A DNA stretch of 41,490 nucleotides from a virus, in the IMG/VR virus record IMGVR_UViG_3300020020_000011, positions 1 to 41,490 of that record; one strand, 5' to 3'. The notes beneath the pieces are model-generated. The model saw nothing but the letters and a program-made list of their open reading frames with translations. It had not been told where the DNA came from and did not search any database. The position numbers were made by a program, and so were the translations under genes. Shown here piece after piece: positions 1,027 to 41,490 of the stretch (its first letter is position 1; each line of letters begins with the position of its first letter).

Positions 1027-1605
1027 ATGGCCCAATCTGCAATCACTGTCACCGTCCCGAGCCCGACCCCGCCGACGAATATGTCGTTCGTAGGCCAGAC
1101 GCCGCCAAATGCACCGACCCAGCTGGTGGTCGATGACGGCGTCGCCGGCACACTGACGGTGTTCGCCGTCAAGACGGCCAGCGCCGACAACGCCAATTTC
1201 CCGTCGATCGAACATGAGGGCAAGGGCACCGAGACGGTGGTGGTGGCGCCAGGCTCCCGCGTCGAGGCGCCGACAGTGTCGTTCTCGGATCTCGGCGCCT
1301 ACACCACCCAGCCGAACCGCGACCATGCCTCGAGCATGTCGCCGGCGACCAACCCGACGCTGACCGCGGCCCTCCAGTCTCCGACAGGCTCGGGCACAGG
1401 CACGGCGGTGCTGACCTGCACCGGTACCGGCTTCACGCCGGCTTGCCGGATCTGGGCCAACAATGTCGAGCAGAATACCACTTACGTCAGCGCCACCTCG
1501 CTGACCTCGACCATCCAGAAGAAGCGCGAGGCGGGGACGTGGCTGGTCGACGTTAAACTGGGCGGTGTTCCGGTTGCGTCGCAGAAGACAATTACTTGGA
1601 CGTAA
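1027..1605 (+). CDS. Virion surface protein with an IPT/TIG-like Ig fold
   Basis: 192 residues. The N-terminal half is Thr/Pro-rich beta sequence. The C-terminal half (about 118-192) resembles an IPT/TIG immunoglobulin-like domain: it has a GTGF turn, a short strand ending in ANNVEQNTTY, then a SATSLTSTI strand. Such domains decorate capsids and tails of many phages and usually bind carbohydrate or stabilise the particle. There is no signal peptide. The start is an ATG with a strong AGGAGAGG ribosome site. It lies in the late block upstream of the scaffold and capsid genes, next to a second Ig-like gene. The decoration role is inferred from fold and position. Confidence 0.75.
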   Translation: MAQSAITVTVPSPTPPTNMSFVGQTPPNAPTQLVVDDGVAGTLTVFAVKTASADNANFPSIEHEGKGTETVVVAPGSRVEAPTVSFSDLGAYTTQPNRDHASSMSPATNPTLTAALQSPTGSGTGTAVLTCTGTGFTPACRIWANNVEQNTTYVSATSLTSTIQKKREAGTWLVDVKLGGVPVASQKTITWT

Positions 1606-1661
1606 ATGGCGGTTCGCGCGTTTAAGGAAAGCAAGGCTTAGGAGACCATAAGGAGACGACG

Positions 1662-2630
1662 ATGGCGCATCCGAAAAACCAAGGCTCCGACGAGCCCAAC
1701 AGCAAGAACCTGGTCAAGCCAGGCTCGACCATGGACCCCAGGGCCGGCATCCCGCCGTCCCAGCAAGGCCAGCCAAAGGATCCGCCGGCGGCAGGGCGGG
1801 GGCTTACGGAGGAGGACCGCGAAGCCGGCCGGCAGCGCCAGCAGGAGGCCTGGGACGAGGCTAGCCGGCGCAGCAAGGACAACAACCCGGTAACCCAGAA
1901 AATGCGGCAATACGACCCGCACGCGCCTGGCATGGATCCGGCCAACCAGCCGGACCCGCAGACCAAGCTCAACAAGGCAACCAGGCTCGACCTCGAGGAC
2001 ATCACCGGCAACCCCGGGCACCGCGGGGTCAACCCCGACGCGCCGGCTAACAGCATCAATCCTGCGGGGGTCGATCGCACGGGGCGGATGGACAGCATCA
2101 ACGAGCCCGGCCATATCGACCAGAACCGGCCCACACCGGAGCAGCGGGCAGAGATGGCGGGCGGTAGCCCCTACAGCATCAACGAGCCCCCAGGCAGCCA
2201 GGTAATCCCTCCTGGAGCCGGTGCAGGCACTGGTGAGGAGGTCGAGCATGGGCCTGGCAGCCAGCCGCCTGGCGTGGCGGGGGGCCAGGGCGAGGCCCCG
2301 ACGATCGAGGCGCTGGAGCCCGACGAGGCCGAGGTCGGCAGCGCCGATTTCGTTCTGGAGGTTTCCGGGACCGGCTTCGTCCAGGGCAGTGTGATCCAGT
2401 TCGGCCCTGACAACGATCTGCAAACCACCTTCATCAGCGAGACGGAGCTGACTGCTCCGGTCAAGCCATCGGAGTGGGGTGACGGCGTGATCGATGTGCG
2501 GGTGAAGAACGCGGACGGCGGGCAGAAGAGCGAGCCGGTCGAGTTTGAGTTCATCCCGGCCGAGGCGCCGGCCGGTCGGCAGAGCAAGCGAACCAAGCCC
2601 AAGCCCCAGGGCAAGAAGGGCAAGAGGTAG
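1662..2630 (+). CDS. Disordered Pro/Gly/Asn-rich protein with C-terminal IPT/TIG-like domain
   Basis: 322 residues. Residues 1-205 are low-complexity and hydrophilic (Pro, Gly, Asn, Gln), with a repeated SINEP/SINPAG-type element (about 128, 144, 170). Residues about 208-295 form an IPT/TIG-like Ig domain (IEALEPDEAEVGS, then VSGTGFVQGS), followed by a very basic tail rich in Lys. The layout suggests an Ig domain displayed on a flexible stalk. The start ATG has an AAGGAG ribosome site. The next gene begins 2 bases after the stop. A head decoration or surface-binding role is inferred; the first 200 residues have no recognisable fold. Confidence 0.7.
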   Translation: MAHPKNQGSDEPNSKNLVKPGSTMDPRAGIPPSQQGQPKDPPAAGRGLTEEDREAGRQRQQEAWDEASRRSKDNNPVTQKMRQYDPHAPGMDPANQPDPQTKLNKATRLDLEDITGNPGHRGVNPDAPANSINPAGVDRTGRMDSINEPGHIDQNRPTPEQRAEMAGGSPYSINEPPGSQVIPPGAGAGTGEEVEHGPGSQPPGVAGGQGEAPTIEALEPDEAEVGSADFVLEVSGTGFVQGSVIQFGPDNDLQTTFISETELTAPVKPSEWGDGVIDVRVKNADGGQKSEPVEFEFIPAEAPAGRQSKRTKPKPQGKKGKR

Positions 2631-17149: not shown

Positions 17150-17593
17150 ATGGCAATCAAGGATCACGGGTTCTGGGATGTCTACACCCCGAAGCCATAC
17201 CCAAAAGGCGCCCCGGCGGGGATGGCGTTCTGCCGCCGAGACGGCGACGGCGTCGACTGGTACGAGTACATCAAAAAAGGCTTCGCACCTGATACCGTCA
17301 AGCTGGTGGTCGAGGTCGACGGGCCCCGAACCGCCGATGGTCCAATCATCCGGGTGCCGGCGATTGAGCCCGACCGGATGTTTCCACAGGGTTGCCGCGT
17401 GGTTGAGCTTACCGGCGTCAAGCGCGAGCAGAACGAGGCGGCGCTAATCGAGGAGTTTGCCAACCGCCACATTGATCTCCGCACCGGCACGGTTGGCGAG
17501 GTCTGGCGCGCGCCGGTGCCGCCGGTCGACAGCCGCATCATGAAGGTGCTGGACCGCATCATGGACCGGCTCGATCGGCTCGAGGCCAAATGA
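17150..17593 (+). CDS. Unknown protein after the tail fibre
   Basis: 147 residues. The beginning (GFWDVYTPKPYPKGAPAGMA) and a beta-rich middle lead to a helical C-terminus (RIMKVLDRIMDRLDRLEAK), a likely short coiled coil. It starts 8 bases after the fibre gene and overlaps the next gene by 4 bases (ATGA). Placement suggests a fibre accessory or assembly factor, but I recognise no family. No cell-wall hydrolase motif is seen although the next two genes look lysis-related. Confidence 0.6.
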   Translation: MAIKDHGFWDVYTPKPYPKGAPAGMAFCRRDGDGVDWYEYIKKGFAPDTVKLVVEVDGPRTADGPIIRVPAIEPDRMFPQGCRVVELTGVKREQNEAALIEEFANRHIDLRTGTVGEVWRAPVPPVDSRIMKVLDRIMDRLDRLEAK

Positions 17594-17844
17594 CCGAGGT
17601 CGCCAAAACCTGGTTCAAGGAAAATCAGGCGCTAGTGATTGGGCTGGCGGCGCAGGCGGTCATCGCCGGCATCTACATGGTCAACCTGGAGGCGCGTGTC
17701 TCAACGCTCGAGATCCGTGGCTCACCGCACCTGGAGAAGATCGACGCCAGGCTGACTGTGCTGGAGGCCGTCACGGCAGAGAATAAGGCTCGGCTCGAGA
17801 AGGTAACAGACGTGATGACGCGGAGACTGAACATCAACCCGTAG
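17590..17844 (+). CDS. Single-pass membrane protein with coiled coil; candidate inner-membrane spanin
   Basis: 84 residues. One membrane segment (about 14-31, ALVIGLAAQAVIAGIYMV) is followed by a heptad-like coiled coil (about 33-80). This N-terminal anchor plus periplasmic coiled coil is the layout of i-spanins (Rz-like), and the next gene is a tiny lipoprotein, the o-spanin layout. A small holin is an alternative. It overlaps the upstream gene by ATGA. Spanins fuse the inner and outer membranes in the last step of lysis of Gram-negative cells. Confidence 0.55.
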   Translation: MTEVAKTWFKENQALVIGLAAQAVIAGIYMVNLEARVSTLEIRGSPHLEKIDARLTVLEAVTAENKARLEKVTDVMTRRLNINP

Positions 17845-17853
17845 GAGGCTACC

Positions 17854-18024
17854 ATGAGGCTCATCTTGCTGGGAATGCTGGCGCTGACACTCAGCGGATG
17901 CGTGATCACCGATCGGGAGCAATTGTACTACACGCGGGCGGATGTCGACGCCATTAACGCGCGATCCGAGTGTCGCATGCTGGCTCGGACCCTCGTCCAG
18001 ATTTCACGCTGCGACGGTAGATAA
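17854..18024 (+). CDS. Small lipoprotein; candidate outer-membrane spanin
   Basis: 56 residues. ATG at 17854 has a TAGGAGG ribosome site. The N-terminus is a short lipoprotein signal, MRLILLGMLALTLSGC, with a perfect lipobox Leu-Ser-Gly-Cys16; lipidation would leave a 41-residue mature protein. It has two further Cys residues near the end. Size, signal and position 9 bases after a membrane/coiled-coil protein fit a two-gene spanin pair. It lacks the high proline content of many Rz1 proteins, so the pairing remains an inference. Confidence 0.55.
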   Translation: MRLILLGMLALTLSGCVITDREQLYYTRADVDAINARSECRMLARTLVQISRCDGR

Positions 18025-18030
18025 AGCGAA

Positions 18031-18059
18031 GGGCGCGGCCCCTGACAAGAACCGCGCCC
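18031..18059 (+). terminator. GC-rich hairpin at the end of the late operon
   Basis: GGGCGCGG (18031-18038) pairs with CCGCGCCC (18052-18059) around a 13-base loop, 6 bases after the last rightward late gene and facing the convergent leftward operon. No T-run follows on either strand, so termination efficiency is uncertain. Confidence 0.45.
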
Positions 18060-18116
18060 CCGCCTTCCCGGCTGGTCGGAGGGTGACTTGGGGACAACAT
18101 CAAGCCAGCCGAAAAC

Positions 18117-18237: not shown

Positions 18238-18996
18238 CTACGCGAAACGGAAGCTAGACCTGCGATAGCCCATGAGGCCCACCCCGGCAAAGCCGAGGAT
18301 CATCATGAACCAGGTCGACAGTTCTGGCACCGCCGCGGTCGGCGTCGGGATCAGGAAGAAGCTGTCCGGTCCATCGTTCGCACCGCTGATGCGAGCGTAG
18401 AAGATCAGCCGGTCACCAGCTTGGATGTCGGTGCCCAAGTTGATGTTGAAGCCTTCCAGAGTATAGTCAGGAAAGCCGGTGCCGTTGTTCTTTGACAAGA
18501 TAGGTGTCCCACCGGGCTCGAACAGCGAATACTGCGCCAGTACGGTGTGCTGTGTCAGGTTCAGCAGCGCAAAGCTCTCCAGCGTCTGCGCCACCCCGGT
18601 ATCGTTGACATCGATGCCGACAGAGAACGTCAGGTTCGGATCGCCATTGGCCGCCAAGTAAGCCCGCAGGAACGAGCCATCATAGGCCGTGCCCACGGTG
18701 TCGAAGCCGGGGTTGCCGCCGCCCGCCACGTTAGTGGAGAAGTAGATCAGGCTGTCGGCGCTGCCGGTGTTCTTGAAGTCGGTGTAGCCGAAGTCTGGTG
18801 CCTGTTGGGGCTGGTTGGCGCCGCAGATGATGCACTGGACGTTGCGCGGCTGGTTGCCACCCGGAACGGTCGGGGTCAGTGACAACGGGGTGCCGGTCGA
18901 GGTCCAAGTCTGGCCGCCGAGGACAACATCGGCGTTGGCGGGTACAACCGCCGCTAATCCAAGTAAAACGGTGGTCGCCAAAAGTAGTTTTCTCAT
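18238..18996 (-). CDS. Secreted PEP-CTERM sorting-domain protein
   Basis: 252 residues. ATG 18996 has an AGGAGA ribosome site at 7-base spacing; an upstream in-frame ATG lacks one. A Sec signal (MRKLLLATTVLLGLAAVVPANA) precedes a beta-rich secreted domain with a CxxC (Cys55, Cys58). Residues about 223-252 form a PEP-CTERM tail: VPELSTW, a hydrophobic helix (FMMILGFAGVGLMGY) and an Arg-Arg end. In bacteria such tails are recognised and cleaved by exosortase, putting the protein at the cell surface or in exopolysaccharide. The VPELSTW variant is familiar from Bradyrhizobium and relatives. No exosortase is coded here, so host exosortase would be needed. It ends the leftward operon, a typical place for a moron gene altering the infected cell surface. 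Confidence 0.85.
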   Translation of the reverse strand: MRKLLLATTVLLGLAAVVPANADVVLGGQTWTSTGTPLSLTPTVPGGNQPRNVQCIICGANQPQQAPDFGYTDFKNTGSADSLIYFSTNVAGGGNPGFDTVGTAYDGSFLRAYLAANGDPNLTFSVGIDVNDTGVAQTLESFALLNLTQHTVLAQYSLFEPGGTPILSKNNGTGFPDYTLEGFNINLGTDIQAGDRLIFYARISGANDGPDSFFLIPTPTAAVPELSTWFMMILGFAGVGLMGYRRSSFRFA

Positions 18997-19032
18997 AATA
19001 GTCTCCTGATCAGGGATTGGTGCGGGATGCAC

Positions 19033-19348: not shown

Positions 19349-19545
19349 TGCACTGTTTCCTGTTTTTCCCGGATCCGCATCAAAATAAACGAGACCCGGT
19401 TCCGAACATCCCACAACTCGCCTTCCTGGGCGGCGACCTCTGGGTAGGTTTTCTCGTCCACCGTCAGCCCGACGATGATTTTGAGGGCGTAATTGATGGC
19501 TTGGATGGCATCCCCGACCTGACGGTCTACCGGCGGCAGCGCCAT
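19345..19545 (-). CDS. Small unknown helical protein
   Basis: 66 residues from ATG 19545, with a GGAAAGGGAAA ribosome site. It begins MALPPVDRQVGDAIQAINYA and ends in a helical, charged stretch. It overlaps the upstream signal-peptide gene by 19 bases and the downstream gene by 4 bases, so translation is probably coupled. Function unknown. Confidence 0.6.
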   Translation of the reverse strand: MALPPVDRQVGDAIQAINYALKIIVGLTVDEKTYPEVAAQEGELWDVRNRVSFILMRIREKQETVQ

Positions 19546-19877
19546 GATTTCCCTTTCCTCGTCAAGACCTTCCTCAACCCTTTTCGGGTGCAAACGTTGC
19601 TTTCCGGCGCCGGCTCGGGGGCTATGGCGGCGGTCTTTACCGGCTTTGGCGGCGGCGGCTCCCCGAACGGCCTTGGTTCGATGCACAGTTGTAGCTCCTC
19701 TCTTGACCAGCCCGACAGGTCGATCGACCGCAGTTCCCTCGAGCCGTCATTGAGGACGTAGGCGCAACGCAGGTACAGCGCCTTATCCTCGCGGGTGAGG
19801 GTGTCGGGGTCGGCCGCCGCGGCCGGCGTGACAAGTAATGTGACACTAAAAAAACAGCGTTTCATTAGGCGTTTCAT
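19527..19877 (-). CDS. Small secreted/periplasmic Cys-rich basic protein
   Basis: 116 residues. The N-terminus is a Sec signal (MKRLMKRCFFSVTLLVTPAAAA) with cleavage expected near Ala-Asp at about 22. The mature part has four Cys residues, a Pro-rich linker (EPPPPKPVKTAAIAPEPAPE), and a basic end NVCTRKGLRKVLTRKGKSWR then Cys-Arg-Arg. A Cys pair around a basic core with a Trp-Arg-Cys end resembles small exported proteins of rhizobia and their phages. ATG 19877 overlaps the upstream stop (ATGA). It could act in the periplasm, for example against competing phages, but that is a guess. Confidence 0.65.
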   Translation of the reverse strand: MKRLMKRCFFSVTLLVTPAAAADPDTLTREDKALYLRCAYVLNDGSRELRSIDLSGWSREELQLCIEPRPFGEPPPPKPVKTAAIAPEPAPESNVCTRKGLRKVLTRKGKSWRCRR

Positions 19878-40540: not shown

Positions 40541-41490
40541 ATGAGCATCGAGGACACCTACTACGATCCGATGACGGGGCTGCCGATCGGCGCGCCGCAG
40601 GTTGGCCCGCCGCCCGAGCTGCCGCCGGATGCACGGTTCGCAATGGGTGCGCTGGCGGCGCAGGACCGTTACCGGCCGTTCGTGCCGTCGCGCGCCGGCG
40701 GCGCCACCCCCTGGAAGAGGATGGAGATTGAAGCCGCGCAAGCGGACACGCCGCGGGATCTGACCGGCGGCGACCCGGCCACCACCAAGTGGCTGGCGGA
40801 TAACGTGGCTGGCGCGTTCGTGCCGACCGAGCCGTGGGAATATGGCCTGATGGCGGCCGGCCCCGCGGGGCGCGTCGCGGGCATGGCAGGCAAGGTCGGC
40901 GCCGCCGCTGCGGGCATGTATGGCAGCATGGTGGACGAGGCCTTTGCGGATCCCCTCAGCAAGATCAGCAAGAAGGGCAGCAGCATCATGGGGGACATCC
41001 TCAAGGCTGCCAGCGTCACCCGCGGCGCCCCGCGGGGTGTGCTGACCCTGGAGGACTTCTCGCCGCCGGCGATGCAGTCTGCGATCGCGCCGAGCGCCCT
41101 GCAGAACACCTACCGCGACCCCAGGCTGAAGGCGAAGGCAGAGGCCATCTGGCACACCTACCCGCAATACGGCGAGGCGTATCCTGCCATCGGGCCGCCG
41201 GCGCTGAAGGAGAAAGCGCCCGACCCCAAGAACCCCGGCAAATTCCTGATCGCGCCGAAGAAGGGGGAAATCCCCTACGCCTCGATGGAAGAGGCATTGG
41301 CGAAGGCTGAAGAGCCTAACTTCTTCCTGGAGAAGAAGCTGACGCCGGAAGCTAAGATATTCCAGAAGCAGCGCAACATCGTTCAGCAGGACATGGACCT
41401 GCACGGCTACACAAAATACTTCGACCCCGCCAAGCGGGCTGACATTCCTGCATCCGACTATGGGCCGTTCGCGGACACCGGCACGGCGGC
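40541..41490 (+). CDS. Large phage protein of unknown function, 5' part (continues at base 128)
   Basis: ATG 40541 with an AGGAGGGG ribosome site, 8 bases after the adhesin gene. The frame runs to the window end and continues in frame at base 128 (through the end repeat), giving 615 residues in all. The N-terminus is Pro-rich (DPMTGLPIGAPQVGPPPELP), followed by a Gly/Ala-rich hydrophobic stretch (YGLMAAGPAGRVAGMAGKVG) that could insert in a membrane, and then helical sequence (YRDPRLKAKAEAIWHTYPQY). The Gly/Ala-rich part resembles ejected internal proteins; alternatively it is a multi-domain protein delivered with the DNA. No enzyme motif recognised. Confidence 0.8.
   Translation, partial: MSIEDTYYDPMTGLPIGAPQVGPPPELPPDARFAMGALAAQDRYRPFVPSRAGGATPWKRMEIEAAQADTPRDLTGGDPATTKWLADNVAGAFVPTEPWEYGLMAAGPAGRVAGMAGKVGAAAAGMYGSMVDEAFADPLSKISKKGSSIMGDILKAASVTRGAPRGVLTLEDFSPPAMQSAIAPSALQNTYRDPRLKAKAEAIWHTYPQYGEAYPAIGPPALKEKAPDPKNPGKFLIAPKKGEIPYASMEEALAKAEEPNFFLEKKLTPEAKIFQKQRNIVQQDMDLHGYTKYFDPAKRADIPASDYGPFADTGTA
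41364..41490. repeat. Exact direct repeat of the window ends (right copy)
   Basis: Identical to bases 1-127; see the left copy. It falls inside the 615-codon gene. Confidence 0.97.

Follow-up and report, generated by a model that had tools for sequence, protein, structure and literature searches.

The closest described system is the PEP-CTERM/exosortase (EpsH) pathway of Gram-negative bacteria (Haft 2006, PMC1569441). Bacterial PEP-CTERM proteins have been linked with exopolysaccharide and with adhesion at the surface, and in Nostoc they disappear from the exoproteome when the exosortase is lost (PMC1569441, PMC12188702). The protein studied here is encoded in a soil-phage stretch of 41,490 nucleotides (IMG/VR record IMGVR_UViG_3300020020_000011, the whole of which is hereafter called the window). 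It resembles the PEPxxWA subclass of this system (model NF035944; exosortase model XrtV, NF035943) in having a signal peptide and the full C-terminal set of PEP-CTERM proteins, i.e., motif, helix and basic cluster, and its ectodomain, too, is without a Pfam match. Unlike bacterial PEP-CTERM proteins, it is encoded by a phage without an exosortase, PEL replaces PEP in its motif, its ectodomain is found in viral contigs only, and its homologues vary in tail class. Exosortases have been defined through genome comparison, and to our knowledge the reading of tails by each exosortase is poorly known.

Two further groups are related to the locus. VPLPA-CTERM (TIGR03370; exosortase model TIGR04152, exosort_VPLPA) covers the tails of homologues L039 and L055, which lie over its cut-off, whereas these two proteins share their ectodomain with the PEPxxWA-tailed window protein and no exosortase was found in the 12 records searched for this comparison. 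The FxDxF family (NF038126) has another ectodomain and is found as a second substrate in related phages, with a GAGFP tail in L058. Among phage-borne genes, sasX encodes an LPXTG surface protein on a phiSP-beta-like prophage of Staphylococcus (PMC6048232). Its product is likewise a phage-borne surface protein that would depend on a host sorting enzyme, and differs in that the enzyme is a Gram-positive sortase and the protein a bacterial-colonisation factor. We know of no tail exchange in SasX. In the open-licence literature, the single mention that turned up of exosortase-interaction domains in viral proteins concerns 13 TIGR03118 proteins from Yellowstone viromes, listed as cell-acquired (PMC11003980); this is a passing mention, without analysis of tail exchange or host matching, and no description of phage-encoded exosortase substrates as a system was found in that literature. 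In addition, gp179 of the cultured isolate Tunturi_5, whose host is Tunturiibacter psychrotolerans X4BP1, is annotated only as hypothetical (XOB77622.1; PP885688.1 125878-126516; L316 967-1605). It has a signal peptide and a PTPEPGSL...YRR tail, matches TIGR02595 at 19.2 bits (cut-off 16), and carries an ectodomain unrelated to that of the window protein.

The window gene (18238-18996, minus strand) is a real open reading frame of 252 codons by ORF listing and translation, starting with ATG at 18996 behind an AGGAGA ribosome-binding site (19002-19007, minus strand), so that the predicted complete and well-translated copy is confirmed. Its product is a secreted, tail-anchored protein, and probably an exosortase-substrate moron. 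All of its parts lie on the minus strand. The Sec-type signal peptide (residues 1-22, MRK...VPANA; 18931-18996) reads MRKLLLATTVLLGLAAVVPANA and ends in ANA ahead of DVV. It is followed by a beta-sandwich ectodomain (residues 23-217; 18346-18930), the putative recognition motif VPELSTW (residues 223-229; 18310-18330), the hydrophobic helix FMMILGFAGVGLMGY (residues 230-244; 18265-18309) and Arg245-Arg246 (18259-18264), which form the predicted cytoplasmic basic end of the tail. An AlphaFold model (mean pLDDT 84.3, pTM 0.78) places a helix at residues 3-14 in the signal peptide, strands between 24 and 217, and a lone helix at 226-247. Within the ectodomain, C55 and C58 (CxxCG) are invariant, and the motifs NGTGFPDY and NDGPDSFF are present (alignments A1-A3).

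The expectation that the tail would match a PEP-CTERM model stood in part: NF035944 matches residues 223-242 with an E-value of 2.3e-5, and the score of 24.2 bits stays under the curated cut-off of 35 because the motif reads PEL, not PEP. Judged on this score, the window protein is thus a sub-threshold PEPxxWA-CTERM member. The Pfam model PF07589 gave no significant match (E 0.12, 13 bits against a cut-off of 20.7). Assignment to the FxDxF family was rejected, since NF038126 has no match over the ectodomain and meets the window protein only in the model's last 28 positions (20.4 bits against a cut-off of 50).

Among 113 distinct complete members, one and the same ectodomain is joined to four tail classes, assigned by our own motif rules: GAGLP (51 members), VPLPA (39), classic PEP (12) and PEPxxWA (11). 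Model scores, which cover part of the 113, place several homologues above curated cut-offs. NF035944 (cut-off 35) is passed by L061 (41.5 bits), L019 (39.7) and L035 (38.9), and TIGR02595 (cut-off 16) by L061 (24.0), L063 (20.7), L078 (20.7) and L081 (20.0), while TIGR03370 (cut-off 25.35) is passed by L039 (28.1) and L055 (26.5), with L079 below it at 20.5. The commonest tail, of the form VPGPxxGAGLPG...RRRR, i.e., VPGPIVGAGLPGL...RRRR, matches no model; a search for this tail in phages and plasmids returned nothing, although the low-complexity filter of BLAST may have masked matches. The ectodomain tree requires no fewer than 13 changes of tail class, against a minimum possible of 3, and strongly supported sister pairs (L061/L062 and L022/L063) carry different tails. 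The window's nearest ectodomains on this tree bear GAGLP tails. As a separate observation, L026 (8342-9004), L027 and L028 encode a secreted protein of 220 aa, in which an unrelated ectodomain is joined to a tail almost the same as that of the window protein.

Tail class also follows the phage backbone to some degree. The late-gene tree unites the window with G032 (100/100 on 3021 columns), and both are WA-tailed with ectodomains only 58% identical; G005 and G006, with ectodomains 76-78% identical to the window's, yet have GAGLP tails. In 49 dereplicated phages, the frequency of sharing a tail goes up with backbone similarity, from 0.39 through 0.52 to 0.76. The backbone effect, with the ectodomain allowed for, is a partial r of 0.14 (p 0.003), and the ectodomain effect is equal (0.135, p 0.0095). 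Nearest backbone neighbours share a tail in 16 of 26 cases against 12 expected, which is unconvincing alone, and the WA-tail phages do not form one group on the early-gene tree. The association of backbone and tail is modest and backs a host-fitted tail in a supportive, not decisive, manner.

Moreover, nine phage types, found in a scan of the family loci and of some 30 records retrieved for the most part, encode a second, non-homologous tailed secreted protein, and in all nine its tail class is that of the family member: GAGLP in L029, L047, L058, L076 and L086, VPLPA in L039, WA in L063, and PEP in L085 and L091. The label-permutation probability of this agreement, calculated by hand, is 5!2!/9! 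= 6.6e-4. L173 agrees as well and was left out of the nine, having been found via a WA-tail search. The second-substrate families change tails in their turn: the FxDxF proteins end in GAGFP in L058 and in WA in L173, L174 and L180 (NF038126 scores of 76 bits for L173 and 78 for L180), and the family shared by L039 and L091 (29-30% identity) has VPLPA in the one and PEP in the other. Second substrates mostly adjoin the family member, and local tail copying within a phage may contribute to the agreement; such copying would still spread one class per phage. As well, two PEPxxWA-tailed secreted proteins each were seen in viral contigs L174, L180, L181, L193, L236 and L238, and L195 (contig 2751185896_000001, classed viral) has four PEPxxWA proteins within 8 kb; the latter contig may be host DNA.

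Since tails are exchanged and unrelated substrates of a phage share one class, the tail appears fitted to a putative host enzyme, and the window gene is probably a phage moron that makes use of a host exosortase. An unlikely alternative is that the tail serves as a membrane anchor only, the protein acting in the periplasm, e.g., in superinfection exclusion, with no exosortase step. A signal peptide, a single C-terminal helix and an Arg cluster would suffice for this, and the window tail scores below curated cut-offs, with the GAGLP tail lacking a model. However, simple anchoring would not require VPE-x-x-TW, PEP or VPLPA to be retained, yet the residues of these motifs are invariant within their class (ten-row alignment A4); homologues pass three curated sorting models, and a shared class among unrelated substrates of one phage is not what mere anchoring asks for.

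The genomic setting is that of a moron. An exact 127-bp direct terminal repeat (1-127 and 41364-41490) identifies the window as a complete phage genome, not a chimera, and together with the neighbouring phage genes it answers the objection, raised with the original prediction, that host DNA had been joined to the phage contig. The late genes, among them those for an SU10-like capsid, a portal and an amidase, point rightward as far as 18024, and the window gene ends a leftward row facing them. In the related phage L016 (capsid 76%, portal 56%), the gene lies at another place, and among related phages both place and orientation vary, as supposed for a moron. Between the converging late (plus) and leftward (minus) genes sits a 15-pair hairpin with a T-rich tail (18029-18061, minus strand), a possible terminator from a consensus scan in which 4 hairpin-type sites were found against 3.8 expected.

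The same leftward row encodes a 116-aa secreted protein ending in ...KSWRCRR (19527-19877, minus strand), homologues of which occur in the WA-tail phages G034 (59%) and G010 (54%), and it is possibly a partner of the tailed protein. Similar endings were noticed in proteins adjoining the gene in several VPLPA phages. A fixed secreted partner ending in WRC was rejected, since just 8 of the 53 loci with sufficient flanking sequence had one near the gene. Where the late row ends (17590-18024, plus strand), a short membrane protein is followed by a 56-aa lipoprotein-like ORF (LSGC), which are perhaps a spanin pair, and two proteins at 1027-2630 (plus strand) with weak TIG-domain matches are possible capsid decorations. 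A tyrosine integrase over the cut-off was detected in 11 of 50 records and not in the window, so the family occurs both in phages where an integrase was detected and in others where none was.

Among 100 members with neighbours called, the family gene often lies in the late region, immediately after the large terminase gene in 17 and after a portal gene in 4, which would suit a virion or lysis component with a gene that is only moron-like. This reading is quite improbable, as the signal peptide and C-terminal anchor would remove the protein from the cytoplasm, where virions are assembled, the gene varies in position, in the window it forms part of a separate leftward row, and the protein has no PHROG match.

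Beyond the original prediction, what emerges is a large ectodomain family that is carried by viruses and has sorting tails that can be interchanged. The ectodomain is encoded by at least 226 IMG/VR contigs, two pattern scans having given overlapping sets of 226 and 230 confirmed relatives. Two pattern scans of 84,980 bacterial and archaeal genomes, one per species, found none, and neither did a search of 50,697 phage records; isolated phages are likewise without it. Pfam, PHROGs and PDB have no matching entry, and Foldseek against PDB and viral models gave nothing at E 1e-3 or better. Matches in plasmids, mainly of Sphingomonadales, were at tail level only. The window gene (dN/dS 0.15-0.19 against close homologues) and the ectodomain family (0.01-0.26) are under purifying selection. 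A passenger host gene, transduced or misassembled and functionless in the phage, is scarcely credible and already contradicted: bacterial PEP-CTERM proteins are common and the accompanying FxDxF proteins are a bacterial family, but the terminal repeat marks a complete phage genome, the ectodomain occurs in more than 220 viral contigs and in none of the bacterial and archaeal genomes, with the second genome-scan pattern set fitting 108 of 114 distinct known members, and its dN/dS is low.

No exosortase was found by PF09721 in the window, in line with the claim that the phage lacks one, nor in 90 viral records (40 + 50, many of them fragments); in the control for this model, only Methanocaldococcus jannaschii was over the cut-off. 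The XrtV model had no match in the window, a weak negative given that control genomes were also silent. The absence is thus an absence from the sequences examined, many of which are fragmentary. A rhizobial host for the window phage is no more than a guess: the isolated phage nearest to it in portal protein (51% identity) infects Rhizobium phaseoli and lacks the window gene, and tail matches in a Rhizobium phage (H37) were rejected as spurious, being antisense.

For a moron of this kind, we infer exosortase cleavage and surface display from the sequence. The protein would be exported by Sec, followed by signal-peptide removal, and its C-terminal helix would anchor it in the inner membrane with VPELSTW on the periplasmic side. 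An exosortase belonging to the infected host would then cut at this motif, and the beta-sandwich domain would be handed to the cell surface or exopolysaccharide. The tail would act as an exchangeable module, the same ectodomain being joined to a PEPxxWA, classic PEP, VPLPA or GAGLP-type ending. By analogy with bacterial PEP-CTERM proteins, the displayed domain may reside in the matrix or at the cell surface. As a tentative guess, it might mask sugars or receptors there, which would hinder competing phages or spare progeny from being lost to cells that are infected already; a role in altering the matrix to help release or spread is about as plausible.

The joining of one ectodomain to several tail classes amounts to a natural domain-swap experiment on exosortase specificity, and the family indicates a fourth tail class, GAGLP, for which there is no model. 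Tail class is, moreover, a host clue for uncultivated phages, and gp179 of Tunturi_5, carried by a cultured phage, makes the idea testable at once. The chances seem evenly balanced that phages of soil bacteria hold a virus-only repertoire of surface proteins, in which an address label, the last 30 residues, is recombined to suit the exosortase class of the host, so that the class predicts the host enzyme and each phage keeps to one class. The findings suggest that soil bacteria which make exopolysaccharide have phages that gain access to the host surface by a route new for phages in the open-licence literature, and that these phages borrow, and retune to, the surface-sorting machine of their hosts.
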